A DNA stretch of 64,000 nt from Arthrobacter sp. EM1 (GTDB taxonomy: Bacteria > Actinomycetota > Actinomycetes > Actinomycetales > Micrococcaceae). The stretch lies in contig NZ_CP124836.1 of assembly GCF_029964055.1 (NCBI RefSeq), positions 186,001 to 250,000 of the forward strand, in the 5' to 3' direction. This document shows, piece after piece, positions 13,188 to 22,380 of the stretch. The notes below the pieces were generated by a model. It searched no databases. It saw nothing but the letters and a program-made list of their open reading frames with translations, and was not told the origin of the DNA. Numbering within the stretch: position 1 is the first letter of the stretch; the number at the start of each line of letters is the position of its first letter. The position numbers and the translations under genes were made by a program.

Positions 13188-13922
13188 TCAGTACCAGTTG
13201 TTCGCGTAGTGGAAGTTCAGCGCCCCGCACGGTGAGCCGTAGCGTTCCTGGACGTAGTTCAGTCCCCAGTTGATCTGCGTCCGGTAATTCGTGAGGTAGT
13301 CGGCGCCTGCGCTGGCCATCTTCTCGGCCGGGAGGGACTGAACCACGCCGTAGGCGCCGCTGCTCGGGTTGGTGGCAGTAGTCTTCCAGTCAGACTCCTT
13401 GGTCCAGAGTTTGACCAGGCACTGCATCTGGCCGGCGTCCCAGCCGTGGGCACCCAGTTGGCTGGCCGCATAAGCCTGCGCTCCGGCGGGATCGTCAACG
13501 GCAACAGGAACCGGCGCGGGCTCCGGCGCCGGTGCGGCGGCGGGGGCCGGTAACTCGGCAGGCTTAACCTCGGCGACCGGGGCCGGGGTATCGGCCGGCG
13601 GGCTGACGGTCTGGTTCGCCACCAGGACGCGTTCAAAGTCGAGGTGCTGCAGCGGATCCGCGCTGACTGCCGATTTTGTGGCGCTGCTGGCGCTGCTGGC
13701 GTTGCGGGTGGCTGTCTCCGACGCTTGGCCGGCGGCGCCGGCTCCCACGAGCACTGCACACGCCGCTGCGACAACTGCCGCCCGGCGGCCGGTGGAGCCC
13801 AGGCCGGTGGTGAACCGGGACAGGGCCGACGCCGGTTTGGCGGGCTCGGCGCGGTGTCGCGACGGCTTGGAGCGCCTCTTTACATCGCCCTCAGGGCGTG
13901 TTTGTACCGTGAATTCAGTCAT
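13188..13922 (-). CDS. secreted transglycosylase-like muralytic protein
   Basis: A 244-residue protein with a basic N-terminal region and a hydrophobic signal-anchor at about residues 45-65 (RRAAVVAAACAVLVGAGAAG). A long Pro/Ala/Val linker follows. The C-terminal domain of about 95 residues contains CLVKLWTKESDW, SSGAYGVVQSLP and GLNYVQERYGSPCGALNFHY. This is the SLT/resuscitation-factor-like lytic transglycosylase pattern, with the Glu of TKESDW as likely catalytic acid. It probably cleaves or remodels peptidoglycan outside the membrane. A c-di-AMP riboswitch lies directly upstream, a regulator often found ahead of such genes in actinobacteria. The ATG at 13922 has GAGAGG upstream. Confidence 0.85.
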   Translation of the reverse strand: MTEFTVQTRPEGDVKRRSKPSRHRAEPAKPASALSRFTTGLGSTGRRAAVVAAACAVLVGAGAAGQASETATRNASSASSATKSAVSADPLQHLDFERVLVANQTVSPPADTPAPVAEVKPAELPAPAAAPAPEPAPVPVAVDDPAGAQAYAASQLGAHGWDAGQMQCLVKLWTKESDWKTTATNPSSGAYGVVQSLPAEKMASAGADYLTNYRTQINWGLNYVQERYGSPCGALNFHYANNWY

Positions 13923-13933
13923 GGTCGCCTCTC

Positions 13934-14098
13934 AACGCCTGCGGAGTTAGCTGTCGGGTTCGGATGAGGTCACCCGGCCGCACGGAATCTCACGTGACGG
14001 CTTCACCCCAAGGGCGCAATGTGCAGAAATGCCCGGGAACTCTGGGTCCCCCGCCTCTGCCTAATCCAGCGGAATCCGGGAGGCGGCAGAGTTTGGCG
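13934..14098 (-). promoter_or_regulatory. ydaO-type c-di-AMP riboswitch
   Basis: On the minus strand the leader has CTTGGGGTGAAGCC in the middle. It ends with CCGAACCCGACAGCTAACTC followed by CGCAGGCGTT, which is the conserved 3' core of the ydaO/c-di-AMP aptamer. The pairing stem GCCGCCTCC...GGCGGGGG fits an internal arm. It ends about 11 bases before the start of the transglycosylase-like gene. Known class members turn expression off when c-di-AMP is high. Boundaries are approximate. Confidence 0.85.
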
Positions 14099-14218: not shown

Positions 14219-15850
14219 TTAGCTGGAGCGGCGGGGTGTCCGGTCCTCGGCCGGAGCGTCCGGCAGCCGAACGGTGAACTCGGTCCGGCCCGGCACCGAC
14301 GTTACGCTGACAGTGCCGCCATGGGCTTCGACAATCGACTGCACAATTGACAATCCCAGCCCGCTGGTGCCCTCAGACGACGCGGCAGTTCGGGCCGGGC
14401 CGGCAGCCGCGGCGGCGAGGGGTGAGTCCGCACCCGGTGCGGACGGCAGCCGGTGTGCGCGCAGCGGCACGAGCGGGCGCGGCCGGCCGGATACCGGCGT
14501 TGTACCGGTTGCAGGATTCCTGCGCGACGCATCCGCGCGCGTAAACCTCGAAAAGACCCGGTCCACGAACTCCGGGGCGATCCCGGGGCCGTTGTCCGTT
14601 ACGGTCATCACGGCGGTGCCGTCGGGAGCCCGCTGCACAGCTGTCACCACGGTGGTGCCGGTTCCAGTGTGCTTGCGTGCGTTGGAGAGCAGGTTGGCCA
14701 GAACCTGGTGGAGCTGGGTCGTGTCGCCGCGGACCACCACCGGCTCCGCTGGGAGCTCCAAGTGCCATACCCGGTCCGGTGCCATCACTTTTTCGTCGCT
14801 CACCGTCTCGATGGCCAGCTGGGTGAGGTCCACGTCGCTGAGGCGGAGCGGCCGGCCCTCGTCCAGCCGGGCAAGCAGGAGCAGATCCTCCACCAGGGTG
14901 GTCATCCGCTCGGACTGGCTCTGCACCCGGGCCAGGGACTTCTCGCCGTCTGGGGTGAAGTGTTCGGTCATCCGCATCAGTTCGGTGTACCCGCGGATCG
15001 CCGTCAGGGGTGTGCGCAGCTCGTGCGAGGCGTCTGCGACAAACTGGCGGACCTTCATTTCGCTCTTCTGCCGGGCTTCGAGTGCGTTGGATACATTGTC
15101 CAGCATCAGGTTCAGGGCGTGGCCAACACTGCCCACCTCGGTGCCGGGATGTGCTGCGGATGCGGGCACCCGCATGGCAAGTCCGACTTCTCCGGCGTCG
15201 AGGGGGAGGCGGGACACTTTCGTGGCCACCTCGGAGAGCTGATCGAGCGGCTTCATGGTGCGGCGAATCAACGCCGTGCCGGCGAGGCCAATGACAACAA
15301 GGCCGCCCGCAGAGACAAGCACCATAGTCCAAACCAAAGAGGCCAGCGTGTTCAATTTCTCGGTGAGCGGCAGCCCGGTCACGATCACGCCGCCGTCCGG
15401 GGCCGTGAAGGCTACCAGCCGGTAGGCCCCGGCGGAAAGAGATCGGTTGACCGGCTCGCTGCTCGCAGGGAGCGACAGGAGAGCTGCGTTGTCCTCCCTG
15501 GTCAGGGACTTTCGGGTGGCGTCTTCGGCGAGGAAACCGGCGCCGCGTACCGAGCCGGCCACGATCCTGGCGTTAAGGGTCCCGATTCCCTGGCCCCGGG
15601 CCTCAAGGGGGTCGGCGCGGCCGCCGGTGCGGCCAAACTCGCGGGCACGGTCCGCGGCTTGCGCGAGTTGTGTGTCGAGCTGCCTGGTCAGGAAGGAATC
15701 CATCGAGGCGTAACTGACTAGGCCGACAGCACCGCAGATCGCCACCAGAAGGGCCATGGCAACCAGAACAAGCCGGGTGCGCAGGTGCCAGCTGGAAGGG
15801 GTGTGCCACACGGGTCCGGCGGGGCCGGCCCTGCCGGAACGGACAGGCAC
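14219..15850 (-). CDS. sensor histidine kinase
   Basis: A 543-residue membrane kinase. Transmembrane helices at about 24-46 and 171-193 flank an extracytoplasmic sensor region. HAMP spans about 194-250. The dimerisation domain has the phosphoacceptor His276 in DASHELRTPL. The ATPase domain has the N box LANLLSNARKH, G1 DNGPGIAP, F box FSRFTRAD and G2 GTSGLGLSIV. Between F and G2 lies an unusual insert of about 50 residues (441-492) rich in Pro, Ala and Arg, where relatives have roughly 10. It is encoded 3 bp downstream of the response regulator gene and forms a classic OmpR-type pair resembling TcrYA/CutRS. The stimulus is unknown. Confidence 0.93.
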   Translation of the reverse strand: MPVRSGRAGPAGPVWHTPSSWHLRTRLVLVAMALLVAICGAVGLVSYASMDSFLTRQLDTQLAQAADRAREFGRTGGRADPLEARGQGIGTLNARIVAGSVRGAGFLAEDATRKSLTREDNAALLSLPASSEPVNRSLSAGAYRLVAFTAPDGGVIVTGLPLTEKLNTLASLVWTMVLVSAGGLVVIGLAGTALIRRTMKPLDQLSEVATKVSRLPLDAGEVGLAMRVPASAAHPGTEVGSVGHALNLMLDNVSNALEARQKSEMKVRQFVADASHELRTPLTAIRGYTELMRMTEHFTPDGEKSLARVQSQSERMTTLVEDLLLLARLDEGRPLRLSDVDLTQLAIETVSDEKVMAPDRVWHLELPAEPVVVRGDTTQLHQVLANLLSNARKHTGTGTTVVTAVQRAPDGTAVMTVTDNGPGIAPEFVDRVFSRFTRADASRRNPATGTTPVSGRPRPLVPLRAHRLPSAPGADSPLAAAAAGPARTAASSEGTSGLGLSIVQSIVEAHGGTVSVTSVPGRTEFTVRLPDAPAEDRTPRRSS

Positions 15851-15853
15851 GAT

Positions 15854-16594
15854 TCAGTCCGCCGGCTTCAGGACATAGCCGGCGCCGCGGACCGTGTGGA
15901 TCATTGGCGGGTGGACGGCGTCGACCTTTTTGCGGAGGTAGGAGATGTAGAGCTCCACGATGTTGGCCTGCCCGCCAAAGTCGTAGTCCCAGACACGGTC
16001 CAGGATTTGGGCTTTGCTGACGACCCGTTTCGGGTTCTCCATGAGGTAGCGCAGCAGCTCGAACTGGGTGGCCGTGAGGTGGAGCTCGTCACCTGCGCGC
16101 CGCACTTCCCGTGTGTCGATGTTCAAGACAAGGTCCCCGACGACGAGTTCGGCCGTATCCATTGCTGCCACCCCGGACCGCTGGACCAGCCGGTGCAGGC
16201 GGAGCAACACTTCCTCCATGCTGAACGGCTTAGTCACGTAGTCGTCGCCGCCGGCAGCCAGCCCGGTGATGCGGTCCTGGACGTCGTCCTTTGCCGTCAG
16301 GAACAAGGCCGGTAGCTCCGGCGCGAAGGCCCGGATCCTGCCGAGGAGCTCGACGCCGTCGAACCCGGGCAGCATCACGTCGAGCACCAGGACGTCGGGC
16401 CGGAATTCCCGGGCGAGCTTCATGGCCTCCGGTCCGTCGGCGGCGACAGCCACCGACCAGCCCGCCATTCGCAGGCCCATGCTCATCAGCTCGGAGAGGC
16501 TCGGTTCATCGTCCACTACCAGGGCGCGGATGGGGGAGCCGTCCGGATGGCTCAGCTGCGGGAGGTTGTTGGTCATGGAGTGCGAGGTGGCCAT
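15854..16594 (-). CDS. OmpR-family response regulator
   Basis: A 246-residue regulator. The receiver domain spans about residues 22-140, with acidic pair VVDDE, phosphoacceptor Asp72 in VLDVMLPG, Thr in FLTAKDD and Lys in TKPF. A winged-helix DNA-binding domain follows from about 150, ending ELYISYLRKKVD and VRGAGYVL. It lies immediately upstream of the histidine kinase, so phosphotransfer between the two is expected. The ATG at 16594 is used, though an ATG six codons later (16576) is possible. No target is evident beyond the operon itself. Confidence 0.93.
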   Translation of the reverse strand: MATSHSMTNNLPQLSHPDGSPIRALVVDDEPSLSELMSMGLRMAGWSVAVAADGPEAMKLAREFRPDVLVLDVMLPGFDGVELLGRIRAFAPELPALFLTAKDDVQDRITGLAAGGDDYVTKPFSMEEVLLRLHRLVQRSGVAAMDTAELVVGDLVLNIDTREVRRAGDELHLTATQFELLRYLMENPKRVVSKAQILDRVWDYDFGGQANIVELYISYLRKKVDAVHPPMIHTVRGAGYVLKPAD

Positions 16595-18251: not shown

Positions 18252-18779
18252 ATGAGCGCGCATCACATCAAACGGCTGGTGATCATGCGCCATGCCAAGG
18301 CGGATTGGCCCGGCGGCGTAGCGGACCATGACCGGCCGCTGGAAGAGCGCGGTCACCGTGATGCTCCGCAGGCCGGTAAGTGGCTGCTGAAACATGGTGT
18401 GGTCCCGGACTTTATTCTTTGCTCCAGCGCCCTGCGCACGCGGCAGACCTGCACTTGGGTTTGCAGCGAATTAGGCGACAAGGCACCGACGCCGAAACTT
18501 GAGCACGGACTTTACGCCGCCTCGGCGTCGCGGATGCTGACAGTCATCAACCACGTCCCGGATACCGTTACCACCCTGATGGTGATCTCGCACATGCCCG
18601 GAGTGCAGGACCTCGCGATGCACCTCGCGTCCCGGGACTCGAGCCACGATGCCTACATGGATGCCGCCACGCGATACCCCACCAGTGCGCTGACCGTTAT
18701 GGAGACGGAGAAGTCCTGGGCCGAACTGGACGGCCAGGACGCGAGGCTCACGCACTTTAAGGTTCCCAGGGCTACATAA
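18252..18779 (+). CDS. SixA-type histidine phosphatase
   Basis: A 175-residue histidine-phosphatase-superfamily protein with the catalytic RHA motif at residues 13-15 (VIMRHAKADW), ALRTRQT and the second His in VISHMPGVQDL. Length and layout match SixA, which removes phosphate from phosphohistidine of phosphotransfer proteins. Actinobacterial members are often annotated only as phosphohistidine phosphatases and may act on other phosphomonoesters. It stands alone between a terminator and the heliorhodopsin gene. The substrate is uncertain. Confidence 0.85.
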   Translation: MSAHHIKRLVIMRHAKADWPGGVADHDRPLEERGHRDAPQAGKWLLKHGVVPDFILCSSALRTRQTCTWVCSELGDKAPTPKLEHGLYAASASRMLTVINHVPDTVTTLMVISHMPGVQDLAMHLASRDSSHDAYMDAATRYPTSALTVMETEKSWAELDGQDARLTHFKVPRAT

Positions 18780-18947
18780 TCCCCGGCCGACGTCGTCTCA
18801 GCGGTCCGGCAGCCTGGAAACAGGCCCGAACTGCCGGCCGGATCGATGCCGGCGCAGCCCATCAGCGGTGTGTCCTTCAGCTCGACGGGTTCCTCTGCGC
18901 CTGCGTCCCTGCTAGTGTCTGCCTCATCCACTCTGAAGGAGTTCCTG

Positions 18948-19748
18948 ATGGCACGGAAAGTACGCACTGCCGATCAGAAGATCTCCCGGCTGAGGGCATA
19001 CAACATCGTGGCCGGCTCCCTGCATCTGGTGCAGGCCCTCGGCTTCGCCTACGTACTGACCCTGCTGGGCAGCCAGGTCACCTTCGCGGTCACGGCCGAC
19101 TACCTCAGCGGTCCTCCCGGTGTTCCGCTGCCGCCTGAGCGGGTAACTCTGTTCGATGTGAACGTGGGTCTGGGAGTAGTGGCGTTCCTGGCGTTGTCTG
19201 CCGTGTTCCATTTCCTCATCTCATCGCCGTGGTTCTTTCCCCGCTACGCGGCCGGCTTGAAGGCGAATCACAACTACTTCCGCTGGGTCGAGTACTCGCT
19301 AAGTTCGTCGATCATGATCTGGCTGATCGCCCAGATTACCGGCATCACGGATATCGCGGCGCTGTTCTCGATCTTCGCCGTCAACGCGGCGATGATTATG
19401 TTCGGGGCCCTGCAGGAAAAGTACGAAACACCCGGCAACGGAAGGTTCCTGCCGTTTGTCTTTGGCTCGATCGCGGGCGTGGTGCCGTGGATCGTGATCA
19501 TCATTTACTTCTTGGCTCCGGGCTCCACCACGGAGGCCTCCCCGCCGGCCTTTGTCTACGGGATCATCATTTCGCTGTTCCTGTTCTTCAACACGTTCGC
19601 AATAAACCAGCTGCTGCAGTACCGGCAGGTCGGCGGCTGGCGGGACTATCTGCGCGGCGAGCGGGCCTACATTACGCTGAGCCTTGTCGCCAAGACCGCG
19701 CTGGCCTGGCAGGTTTTTTCGGGCGCGATTATCCCGGCACTCACCTAG
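18948..19748 (+). CDS. heliorhodopsin
   Basis: A 266-residue seven-helix membrane protein with heliorhodopsin hallmarks. Helix 7 carries the retinal-binding Lys249 in TLSLVAKTALAWQVF. Helix 3 carries the counterion Glu115 in RWVEYSLSSSIMIWLIAQ. An interhelical NHNYFRW segment precedes helix 3. Heliorhodopsins bind retinal with inverted membrane orientation and have a long photocycle, and no ion pumping is known for most. The ATG at 18948 has AAGGAG 6 bases upstream; in-frame upstream codons were not used because they lack such a site. No retinal synthesis gene is in the window, although a carotenoid-desaturase-like gene lies 18 kb away. Biological role is unknown. Confidence 0.92.
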   Translation: MARKVRTADQKISRLRAYNIVAGSLHLVQALGFAYVLTLLGSQVTFAVTADYLSGPPGVPLPPERVTLFDVNVGLGVVAFLALSAVFHFLISSPWFFPRYAAGLKANHNYFRWVEYSLSSSIMIWLIAQITGITDIAALFSIFAVNAAMIMFGALQEKYETPGNGRFLPFVFGSIAGVVPWIVIIIYFLAPGSTTEASPPAFVYGIIISLFLFFNTFAINQLLQYRQVGGWRDYLRGERAYITLSLVAKTALAWQVFSGAIIPALT

Positions 19749-19860
19749 CCGAGCGGCCGAGGGAACGCCCGGCGGGCCACCAGCGGGCGGCGGTCACTTC
19801 CGGATACCGGGAAATCCACCGGCCATTGCCGCAACAGGTGAAATGTGTTTCACTGTTCGT

Positions 19861-19953
19861 GGAGGGGAGTATCCCCTGGATGTTTCGTCGTCAGCCCGGC
19901 CGCCCCTGAGCGGCCCGGCGGAGCAGGCCCCCTTTGGGCCGGGAAAGACCTCC
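19861..19953 (+). promoter_or_regulatory. yybP-ykoY-type manganese riboswitch
   Basis: The leader of the TerC gene opens GGAGGGGAGTAT and closes AAAGACCTCC, so GGAGG pairs with CCTCC as helix P1 around the conserved GGGGAGTA strand. CGTCGTCAG in the middle matches the second conserved strand of this class. A GC-rich hairpin (GGCCGCCCCTGAGCGGCC) lies between. TerC/MntP-type exporters are the known downstream genes of this riboswitch. Known members sense Mn(II). Edges are approximate. Confidence 0.8.
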
Positions 19954-19987
19954 GGTTGGTTAGAGCTGACTGGAAGCGGGTATCCCC

Positions 19988-21100
19988 ATGAATGTTCCCT
20001 TTTGGGCTTGGCTGGCTGTGCTTGGCGGCATCGTCCTGATGCTTGCGGTCGACCTGTTTGCCCACCGCCGCGCACACGTGATCCGTGTCCGGGAAGCGGC
20101 CCTATGGTCCGCGGTCTGGGTTGTTGTCGGGGTTGGTTTCGGCGCCCTGATCTGGCAGATTTACGGCCAGGAGTTTGGCCAGCAATACTTCGCCGGCTAC
20201 CTGATCGAGAAATCCCTCGCCGTCGATAACGTGTTCATCTGGGCAATTATCTTCACGTACTTCGCGGTACCCCGCGAATACCAGCACCGGGTCCTGTTCT
20301 TCGGGGTCCTCGGCGCGCTGGTCTTCCGTGGCGTTTTCATCGCCGCGGGCGCGGTAATCATCGCCAGTGCCGAATGGGTGCTGTACCTCTTTGCAGCGTT
20401 CCTGCTCATCACCGGCTACCGGATGATCCGCCACCGCAACGACGTGCTTGACCCGGAAAAGTCCCGGGCACTGAAACTTTTCCGCCGGCGTGTGCCCATG
20501 ACGGACGACTTCCACGGCCAGCGCTTCCTGATCCGCAAGGACGGCGTCCTGCTGGCCACCCCGCTGCTCGCGGTGCTGGCCCTCATTGAGGTCACCGACA
20601 TCATTTTCGCCGTGGACTCCATCCCCGCGATCTTCGCCGTCACCGACGAAGTGTTCCTGGTCTTCACCGCCAACGCGTTCGCCATCCTGGGCCTGCGGGC
20701 AATGTACTTCCTACTCTCTGACATGATCCACCGCTTCATCTACCTCAAAATCGGACTCGCGCTCGTCCTGATCTGGGTAGGCATCAAAATGTTCCTTAAG
20801 ATCGACCTCTACTACATCCCCACACCGCTGTCTCTGGCCGTCATCGCCACTATCCTGGCGGTGTCCATCGGAATCAGCCTCTGGGCCACCCGGGGCCAAG
20901 AACGCACGGTTCCCGAGGCGCCGGCATCCTCCCCGTTCGGAACCGCCTCGGCTGCGGAGATCGCCGAGCTGGAACCACTGTGGGGACGCGCGCGCCAGCG
21001 CACGGAAGCAACAACCACGGCCACCGCCGATGCCCCCGGCAACGGTGACACCGGCGGTTCCGCGGACGCGCCGGGTCCGGGTCCGGGTGAACGCAGATGA
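19988..21100 (+). CDS. TerC/Alx-family membrane protein
   Basis: A 370-residue integral membrane protein of the TerC family with about nine helices. It has the paired acidic motifs EKSLAVDNVFIW (near residue 75) and EVTDIIFAVDSIPAI (near residue 200), which line the proposed metal pathway. A poorly conserved cytosolic tail of about 70 residues rich in Ala, Gly and Pro follows. Family members export Mn(II) or load metals onto secreted enzymes. The Mn-type riboswitch directly upstream supports a manganese export role. GGAAG lies 10 bases before the ATG. A MarR-like gene follows 73 bp downstream. Confidence 0.92.
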   Translation: MNVPFWAWLAVLGGIVLMLAVDLFAHRRAHVIRVREAALWSAVWVVVGVGFGALIWQIYGQEFGQQYFAGYLIEKSLAVDNVFIWAIIFTYFAVPREYQHRVLFFGVLGALVFRGVFIAAGAVIIASAEWVLYLFAAFLLITGYRMIRHRNDVLDPEKSRALKLFRRRVPMTDDFHGQRFLIRKDGVLLATPLLAVLALIEVTDIIFAVDSIPAIFAVTDEVFLVFTANAFAILGLRAMYFLLSDMIHRFIYLKIGLALVLIWVGIKMFLKIDLYYIPTPLSLAVIATILAVSIGISLWATRGQERTVPEAPASSPFGTASAAEIAELEPLWGRARQRTEATTTATADAPGNGDTGGSADAPGPGPGERR

Positions 21101-21173
21101 GCGGACACGAACTATTGCTTATGCCGCATCCGCAATCCGATCCCGCCAGCGCACACGTCAGCCAGGAGCAACC

Positions 21174-21521
21174 ATGACCGTTCCGCCCAGCAGACCAGTC
21201 ACGATCCTGAATCAAATGATCCGCGCCGAGCCGGCCGCATCCCCACGCCCGGCCTGGACCTTCCTCACGAACCACGGACATGTCCTTTTGGCCGTGGCGA
21301 CGGATCCGCGGCTGCGGGTCACTGACATCGCCGAACGAGTCGGCATAACGCCACGTGCAGCCCTGCAGATCCTCAAGGACCTGGAAACCGGAGGGTACCT
21401 GCACCGCACCCGCGTCGGACGGCGCACCCAGTACGCCATCGAACCCCATCAGCACTTCCGCCACCCCACCACCGCGGCCCGGGAAATCGACGGACTCATC
21501 GAGCTATTCTCCGAACCGTGA
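21174..21521 (+). CDS. small winged-helix (MarR/ArsR-like) regulator
   Basis: A 115-residue single-domain winged-helix protein. The helix-turn-helix is in DIAERVGITPRAALQILKDL and the wing in GGYLHRTRVGRRTQYAIEP. AGGAG lies 7 bases before the ATG at 21174. It follows terC on the same strand, so the two may be co-transcribed and the regulator may act on metal or stress genes. No metal-binding Cys/His cluster is obvious. Family placement between MarR and ArsR is uncertain. Confidence 0.8.
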   Translation: MTVPPSRPVTILNQMIRAEPAASPRPAWTFLTNHGHVLLAVATDPRLRVTDIAERVGITPRAALQILKDLETGGYLHRTRVGRRTQYAIEPHQHFRHPTTAAREIDGLIELFSEP

Positions 21522-21608
21522 GCCGCGACCCGGGCCAAGCCATCCCACAATTCTTCCGGACGGGATGGTCACGAGCCGGGCAGACGATCCCGCCGGGCAT
21601 GCCCGGCG

Positions 21609-21688
21609 GCCGGCGCTGAGCCGGGGTATGCCCGCCCGGGGGCCGGCGCTGAGCCGGGGTATGCCCGGCGGGGGGCCGGCGCACCGAA
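21609..21688. repeat. 33-bp tandem repeat, about 2.3 copies
   Basis: The unit starts GGCCGGCGCTGAGCCGGGGT and continues ATGCCCG plus a variable C/G run. Copies begin at 21609, 21642 and 21675, the last one partial. The flank at 21591-21608 (GGGCATGCCCGGCGGCC) is related. It lies in the convergent gap between the winged-helix regulator and the membrane protein gene. Confidence 0.75.
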
Positions 21689-21690
21689 GT

Positions 21691-22380
21691 TCAGCGGCGC
21701 GTCGACGACCGTGCCGGGGTGCGTTCCACTGATTTGGCGGGGCCTTTGGCAACGGACTTTGTGCCGGTGGTTCGCCCGGCGGACGGGGCCGGACGCCTGG
21801 CTCCCGGGGCTGCAGGCCGCGGGGCAGGAGCGCGTGCCGGCGGCGCTGCGGACCGTGGTGCCGGCCGCTGGCTGGCAGTCCGGGAGGGTGCGCGGCGGCC
21901 GGCCGGGGCTTTGGAAGCGGTGCCCCGCGCGGCCGTCGGACGGCGGCCGGGAACGGAACCGCGGGGCCGCGGTTGCCTGCCCCGCCCCGGGAGGACGGTT
22001 CCGGCAACCAGCAGCAGCAGGGTAGCTGCGCCGGCCGCGGCGGCGAGGTAGAAGTACAGGTCCGGGTGGTCCGAATCCACCGGAGCCGACATCGCATCCG
22101 GATCAGCGTTGAAGGCCAATCCCCACTGTCGCAGGAACGCTATGCCGAAGGCGATAAACAGCATGCTCCCGATCCCGCTGGCTGCCAGCGTCCGGTGCCG
22201 CCGGCGGATGACCACCTCGGAAACGCAGGCCACATAGGCTGCCCCGGCGGCCGCCAGGAACCACAGGAACACCGTTTCGTGGAGTGTGATGCCAGCCAAC
22301 GCCAGAAGCGCCAGGGCGGCGAGGAACGCACCGATGGCAAACTTGCCGCTGTTACTCATGTGGCCCATGTGAATCATCAT
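21691..22380 (-). CDS. membrane protein with long basic Ala/Pro/Arg tail
   Basis: A 229-residue protein with four hydrophobic helices in the first 130 residues (FAIGAFLAALALLALAGITL, then FLWFLAAAGAAYVACVSEVV, SGIGSMLFIAFGIAFL and YFYLAAAAGAATLLLLVAG). A tail of about 95 residues made almost only of Ala, Pro, Arg, Ser, Gly and Lys follows. Such tails may bind nucleic acid or cell-wall polymers. Several ATG codons lie near the start; 22380 and 22359 are both possible, and neither has a strong ribosome-binding site. The family is not recognised. Confidence 0.65.
   Translation of the reverse strand: MMIHMGHMSNSGKFAIGAFLAALALLALAGITLHETVFLWFLAAAGAAYVACVSEVVIRRRHRTLAASGIGSMLFIAFGIAFLRQWGLAFNADPDAMSAPVDSDHPDLYFYLAAAAGAATLLLLVAGTVLPGRGRQPRPRGSVPGRRPTAARGTASKAPAGRRAPSRTASQRPAPRSAAPPARAPAPRPAAPGARRPAPSAGRTTGTKSVAKGPAKSVERTPARSSTRR

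Follow-up and report, generated by a model that had tools for sequence, protein, structure and literature searches.

The gene at 18948-19748 of the window (the whole 64,000-nucleotide stretch of Arthrobacter sp. EM1 DNA analysed here) is, judging from homology, near-certainly a genuine full-length heliorhodopsin (HeR), a further member of a known family, and the gene that follows it encodes a TerC/Alx family membrane protein. TerC recurs directly beside HeR genes, whatever their relative orientation. None of the carotenoid and retinal gene families that were searched has a match in the host genome. The reading tentatively favoured here, which falls somewhat short of probable, is that this HeR acts as a retinal-dependent photosensory regulator that uses external retinal and has TerC as its best-supported local partner. 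The features of the locus are as follows.

18252..18779, + strand: SixA-like histidine phosphatase (PF00300), an old neighbour at the insertion site that is not specific to HeR; found together with an upstream regulator in relatives without HeR there
18780..21980 (right edge approximate), no strand assigned: putative added segment with HeR, TerC, and the winged-helix gene; missing at the same site in 5 of 5 SixA-side loci
18948..19748, + strand: HeR gene, type A copy, identified by Pfam and NCBIfam profiles, PDB 48C12, and alignments
19838..19853, no strand assigned: perfect dyad GTGAAATGTGTTTCAC, a possible operator, upstream of the TerC leader
19861..19976, + strand: structured TerC leader resembling a manganese (yybP-ykoY-type) riboswitch, from a 12-sequence alignment
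19988..21100, + strand: TerC/Alx family membrane protein of 370 amino acids, a recurrent neighbour of HeR, identified by PF03741, TIGR03718, and adjacency
21030..21521, + strand: small winged-helix regulator (HTH_24/MarR_2), start uncertain, with homology from about 21144-21255

The HeR open reading frame runs on the forward strand from an ATG at 18948 to a stop at 19748, encodes 266 amino acids, and has AAGGAG upstream of its start at 18936-18941. Its product covers nearly the whole of two family profiles, scoring 324.4 bits against PF18761 Heliorhodopsin (cut-off 26.7) and 349 bits against the NCBIfam model NF038020 (cut-off 100). Among solved structures, 48C12 is the closest in sequence (302 bits), with identical residues at 151 of 251 aligned positions. 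These matches bear out the first-pass annotation, which had called the gene a heliorhodopsin from two marks, Lys249 in SLVAKTALAWQ and Glu115 in WVEYSLSSS. Both marks hold, since they align with K241 and E107 of 48C12 and are invariant in nine HeR sequences from the genus and 23 wider ones. In a computed mapping, the 48C12 residues that we take to be functionally important (H23, H80, N101, E107, E149, E230, S237, and K241) correspond to H26, H88, N109, E115, E157, E238, S245, and K249 of the window protein, and all are conserved; the loss of key helix contacts, which the annotation had given as grounds for rejecting the assignment, is not seen in the alignment. The SxxxK retinal-lysine motif of helix 7, which has been used as a heliorhodopsin criterion (PMC8612252, available in part), is formed by S245 and K249, and E115 is the glutamate counterion of helix 3.

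An AlphaFold2 model built with 23 homologues (mean pLDDT 84.3) predicts the 48C12 fold, with seven helices and a beta-stranded first loop (strands 45-52 and 64-72), and its top PDB match is 48C12 itself (6su4; TM 0.87/0.91; 57% identity). The N-terminal sequence MARKVRTADQKISRLR carries a strong positive charge, which agrees with an inside location by the positive-inside rule as read from the sequence. The likeness to 48C12 (PDB 6su3/6su4/6uh3) thus takes in full-length homology, the same Schiff-base, counterion, and histidine residues, and the same predicted fold, whereas the host is a different one and has no matches to known retinal genes. Purifying selection on HeR is strongly indicated by sequence comparison, because there is no amino-acid change relative to the copy in a second genome of the same species (G031) at a dS of 0.07 (dN 0), and dN/dS is 0.06-0.14 against five other HeRs in a hand-picked comparison set.

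The window genome (G000) is a single contig of 3.886 Mb that is 99.94% complete, and G031, assigned to the same species, is 95% complete; the host had been described as a soil-type actinobacterium, and an actinobacterial host is supported and fits Arthrobacter. HeR is present in 6 of 150 genomes of the genus and in 26 of 396 genomes of the order, and it was matched in 109 of 396 genomes of a phylum sample (108 above cut-off, some of the matches being fragments). Four of the six HeR-bearing genus genomes contain a second, divergent HeR (copy B; 38-40% identity), which in G000 lies at L019:9546-10340 (G000 C1:1472908-1473630). In two of the four (L019 of G000 and L026 of G130), copy B is directly flanked by a divergent TetR gene; in L025 and L027 (G014 and G140), a related TetR gene lies farther away. 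Genes that look transposase-like by eye are found a few kb from copy B in L019.

By sequence, the window HeR is closest to that of Arthrobacter sp. SO5 (94%), followed by a Cryobacterium group (88-91%), while the four other type-A HeRs of the genus sample lie below both at 79-86%. The HeR tree places the window copy with SO5 and five Cryobacterium rows (support 89/83, a branch that is not starred). The sequences therefore suggest that this HeR has passed between families, since it is closer to copies from Cryobacterium, which belongs to another family, than to the other type-A copies of its own genus.

Are the genes around HeR informative about its function? The SixA-like phosphatase that the first pass had noted as a neighbour is present (PF00300), though its TIGR00249 score of 53.1 bits lies below the cut-off of 74.5 for SixA phosphohistidine phosphatases. 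In relatives, this gene and its upstream regulator stay together, and HeR and TerC are missing from 5 of 5 such sites (L224-L227 and L233); the alignment with these relatives ends with SixA and picks up again at window positions 21803-22376, weakly in L226. Relatives carry the same TerC, together with its leader (from about 19823), at other places, and the small winged-helix gene follows it in four of five of these loci (L229-L232; it was not seen in L228). The comparison indicates that HeR, TerC, and the winged-helix regulator are an added segment, because the SixA sites of relatives lack HeR and TerC while the TerC module sits elsewhere. The parts of the segment have different nearest relatives: the TerC region has 87% DNA identity to G140, from the genus Arthrobacter, and HeR is closest to SO5. 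Two-component genes have been found to be enriched near HeRs (PMC8612252, available in part), and those at 14219-16594 were considered as partners of the window HeR, as was SixA. Both candidates were rejected: relatives that have no HeR at this site carry the two-component genes as well, and SixA belongs to the locus as it was before the insertion. As long-standing occupants of the locus, SixA and the two-component genes close by are uninformative on HeR. Elsewhere in the window, a c-di-AMP riboswitch was matched at 13921-14081 on the reverse strand (64.8 bits; gathering score 38), before the gene at 13188-13922.

The other neighbour, TerC, belongs to its family by two profiles, PF03741 (181.9 bits; cut-off 27.8) and TIGR03718 Alx (402.6 bits; cut-off 246.4), as do E. 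coli Alx and B. subtilis MeeF/MeeY; the function of the family is manganese transport or metalation (PMC10550928, available in part). Unlike these, the window TerC is linked to a rhodopsin gene, and its metal specificity is predicted. After five duplicates were dropped (the window, L020, L039, L048, and L052, which were also left out of the tree and the family control), 174 HeR loci were reduced to 169, of which 11 have TerC directly adjoining HeR and 158 do not. Counted by gene slots, TerC occupies 11 of 330 positions adjacent to HeR versus 2 of 1833 more distant ones (Fisher 5e-8), the gene calls in these neighbourhoods coming from a simple GC-frame picker rather than from annotation. The chance expectation is 0.38 loci if a genome is taken to have 4 TerC genes among about 3600, the number above cut-off in G000 being 4; it could be somewhat higher, since TerC genes are more numerous in G140 and G130.

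The 11 loci comprise nine of 80 named loci, L022 from the genus set, and L145 of 24 order-level loci, with none among 60 phylum-level loci, where a TerC model built from these same TerC genes could miss distant ones. They cover all four orientations; TerC is immediately adjacent to HeR in every one, and two or more TerC paralogues are involved. HeR is followed by TerC on the same strand in the window species and in L022, and TerC is followed by HeR in L056, L063, L067, L078, and L145; the pair is divergent in L030 and L100 and convergent in L057 and L071. The TerC of L063 and of L071 appears truncated or frame-broken. On the HeR tree (without L145), the TerC label requires six changes, of which starred branches force three; shuffled labels require 9.7 on average, so the label is also clustered on the tree. 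The 11 loci are not independent and represent some 6-7 juxtapositions, and the choice of TerC for this count was made after the neighbourhoods had been inspected. Among control families beside HeR, the next most frequent is MMPL (PF03176), with nine rows, three changes, and two orientations; it ties with TerC at nine among the 80 named loci, and no other listed neighbour family exceeds three changes. This MMPL-family transporter is a second recurrent membrane-protein neighbour of HeR, and its rows (for example L083:4251-6434 and eight others) all come from Rhodoluna, Aquiluna, or unnamed Micrococcales/Microbacteriaceae.

No TerC adjoins the HeR of SO5, the near relative, and within the genus TerC modules are mobile, their loci having little in common beyond TerC and the winged-helix gene. 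Several looser associations were also seen. In L061, HeR is immediately preceded by a winged-helix protein from the TerC-following family, with no TerC present (L061:7581-7943). G130 has possible ter/TerD-like stress genes, read by eye, less than 10 kb from HeR (L023:13965-18390). Lower-scoring TerC-family matches of 53-55 bits are found in G130, at a distance of about 10 kb from HeR, and in G140, at about 15 kb.

The pairing is known but little explored. Cho et al. (2024) listed TerC among ten frequent same-operon partners of HeR, so the linkage is already partly known, and a recurrence independent of orientation was not seen in the available part of that paper (PMC11109279). In L022, which is of the predicted same-operon type, a different TerC, sharing about 35% identity with that of the window, has its ATG 6 nt after the HeR stop. 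The window pair shares the direct adjacency of HeR and TerC with the group of Cho et al. but differs in that its TerC lies 240 bp from HeR with its own 5' leader, and divergent, convergent, and TerC-upstream pairs are also found in the present set. From gene order, a joint HeR-TerC transcript in the window is a candidate only; no terminator-like site was found in the gap between the two genes, and no promoter-like site was found at 18700-20050 in a scan that is uninformative for actinobacterial promoters. It had been stated that neither neighbouring gene explains the role of HeR. This stands for SixA, a gene of the old locus, and does not quite stand for TerC, given its enrichment beside HeR and the report of Cho et al., though TerC alone does not explain the role either.

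Is TerC under manganese control at this locus? In an alignment of 12 TerC genes, a hand-picked set, the leader has a P1 helix in which GGAGG at 19861-19865 pairs with CCTCC at 19949-19953, and an alternative helix, with weak covariation, pairs 19951-19955 with 19970-19974 close before the start codon. Across P1 (GGAGG/CCUCC) and a central stem, 13 of 21 pairs are changed on both sides, a number reached in 0 of 500 shuffles, most of the pairs having been proposed by RNAalifold from the same alignment and P1 by hand. The leader of this metal-transport gene thus contains a conserved paired structure. Its likeness to the yybP-ykoY manganese riboswitch, in comparison with what we take to be the aptamer consensus, consists of GGGGAGUA, CGUC..ACGG-like and GACCU elements, the P1 helix, and the position of a structured leader before TerC. 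In contrast to that riboswitch, neither window 19700-20100 nor the leaders of L078 and L030 matched Rfam RF00080 at E<=10, and assignment to the curated manganese riboswitch was rejected. SSRC10 scored 26.7 and 14.3 bits against 56 in the leaders of two relatives, which is sub-threshold. Manganese is a plausible ligand of the leader. Of the earlier description of a manganese-responsive TerC, the TerC identity and a conserved, covarying leader are upheld, while manganese responsiveness is plausible but unproved, Rfam having matched no such element in the window at E<=10.

The dyad GTGAAATGTGTTTCAC upstream of the leader is the sole perfect match to GTGAANNNNNNTTCAC in the window. By eye, it is perfect in six of eight Arthrobacter-genus alignment rows and has one mismatch in the other two. 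It is a possible operator for the predicted regulator encoded after TerC, a winged-helix protein with HTH_24/MarR_2 matches and a weak HTH_metalloreg match below cut-off.

Where would the retinal come from? The search for a cleavage dioxygenase that the first-pass annotation had proposed found none in the G000 genome: there is no match to Blh (PF15461; the same search was positive in 17 of 248 order genomes) or to RPE65-type oxygenases (PF03055; positive in 2 of 14 controls). The Blh search covered G000 and the order sample, and the RPE65 search covered G000 only among the six HeR genomes. Phytoene synthase (PF00494; positive in 7 of 14 controls), whose step precedes those of both cleavage enzymes, is likewise unmatched in G000, which therefore lacks the combination expected of a retinal-producing host, phytoene synthase with either Blh or an RPE65-type enzyme. 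Phytoene synthase occurs in 24 of 150 genus genomes and in none of the six with HeR; a statistical link between HeR and the absence of carotenoid genes was rejected, as 0/6 vs 24/144 has little power.

Yet G000 carries three rhodopsin genes, the two HeRs and a type-1 rhodopsin at L236:9593-10411 (G000 C1:2136652-2137329). The latter is actinorhodopsin/xanthorhodopsin-like, lies divergent from a MarR gene, has a D..T..E pattern when read by eye, and has Rhodoluna actinorhodopsin (9hfk; 268.7 bits) as its closest solved match; identification as a CryoRhodopsin was rejected (CryoR2, 70.2 bits). Type-1 rhodopsins occur in 3 of the 150 genus genomes (G000, G092, and G140), all within the six with HeR, and G031 has no match to a second HeR or to a type-1 rhodopsin (PF01036). 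Retinal is probably taken from outside, scavenging being the simplest reading because three rhodopsin genes are present while the retinal and carotenoid families are unmatched. HeRs have been described in organisms without a retinal pathway, with rapid retinal uptake (PMC9296517, available in part). An unrecognised retinal route is possible by analogy with Aurantimicrobium minutum, which makes retinal without known genes (PMC7734400, available in part); that strain has carotenoid genes, whereas phytoene synthase is unmatched in G000.

How might these observations fit together? On the tentatively favoured reading, HeR, which is maintained by selection, would act as a photosensory regulator rather than a pump and be loaded with retinal taken up from the environment. 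A light-driven change in HeR would then alter the activity or expression of TerC, and through this coupling manganese handling or the metalation of exoproteins would respond to light exposure. We infer a physical or regulatory coupling because of gene order and of precedents in which HeR regulates the product of its neighbour, namely glutamine synthetase (AbHeR-GS, PMC9529153), an ABC exporter (OcHeR-OmrDE, PMC11109279), and a photolyase (PMC9769723), all three sources being available in part. The proposed logic is that of OcHeR-OmrDE and AbHeR-GS, except that the partner would be TerC and not an ABC exporter or glutamine synthetase, and that the present pair is known from its genes. Against this reading, most HeR loci, that of the near relative SO5 included, have no TerC beside HeR, TerC modules are themselves mobile in the genus, and HeR may be unloaded, given the unmatched retinal and carotenoid families. 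The more specific proposal, that HeR is a light-dependent modulator of TerC under a manganese-riboswitch-like leader and tunes manganese export or metalation in a retinal auxotroph, is rather doubtful.

It is a serious possibility that HeR is a photosensor with other partners, and that its adjacency to TerC reflects small mobile modules landing in the same places. TerC and HeR each sit at shifting loci in the genus, most HeRs (158/169) have no TerC neighbour, and other families such as MMPL (nine rows) recur beside HeR too; copy B of G000 has a divergent TetR gene instead, and genes resembling transposases by eye lie at most a few kb away. Shared mobility does not, however, predict placement as the next gene in four orientations with different TerC paralogues, nor the 6-nt operon spacing of L022, and the six tree changes for TerC compare with at most three for the other listed families. 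Light-driven ion transport, as in the viral V2HeR3, is very unlikely: one HeR with proton transport does exist (PMC9448325, available in part), but the window HeR is closest among solved structures to the 48C12-type bacterial HeR, OcHeR showed no pumping in vesicles in the available part of PMC11109279, and G000 already has an actinorhodopsin-like gene with the D..T..E pattern seen by eye.

Two further explanations turn on retinal itself. HeR could capture scarce external retinal and perhaps hand it to the actinorhodopsin-like protein of the same cell. This is unlikely, although G000 combines two HeRs and a type-1 rhodopsin with no PF00494, PF03055, or PF15461 match, all three genus genomes with a type-1 rhodopsin are among the six with HeR (150 sampled), and retinal uptake by HeR is fast (PMC9296517, available in part); G031, G014, and G130 have HeR but no PF01036 match, and the counterion and Schiff-base residues are conserved as in photoactive HeRs. 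An unloaded or vestigial HeR, an apoprotein with no retinal source and no light function, would fit the unmatched retinal and carotenoid families of G000. It is improbable in view of the strong purifying selection, with zero amino-acid change at a dS of 0.07 against G031, and of A. minutum, which makes retinal without known genes, though that strain has carotenoid genes (PMC7734400, available in part).

Arthrobacter is a genus that is usually easy to grow. G000 is a clean case, with three rhodopsin genes and the searched carotenoid and retinal families unmatched, and any pigment would be external or come from an unknown pathway because those families have no match in the genome. The first-pass annotation regarded HeR function as still open, and this is supported. 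The role of bacterial HeRs is largely open, and the repeated juxtaposition with TerC, in every orientation and with different paralogues, offers a concrete test that combines light, retinal, metal, and TerC. If the proposed coupling is true, it would be a case of a rhodopsin controlling metal homeostasis.
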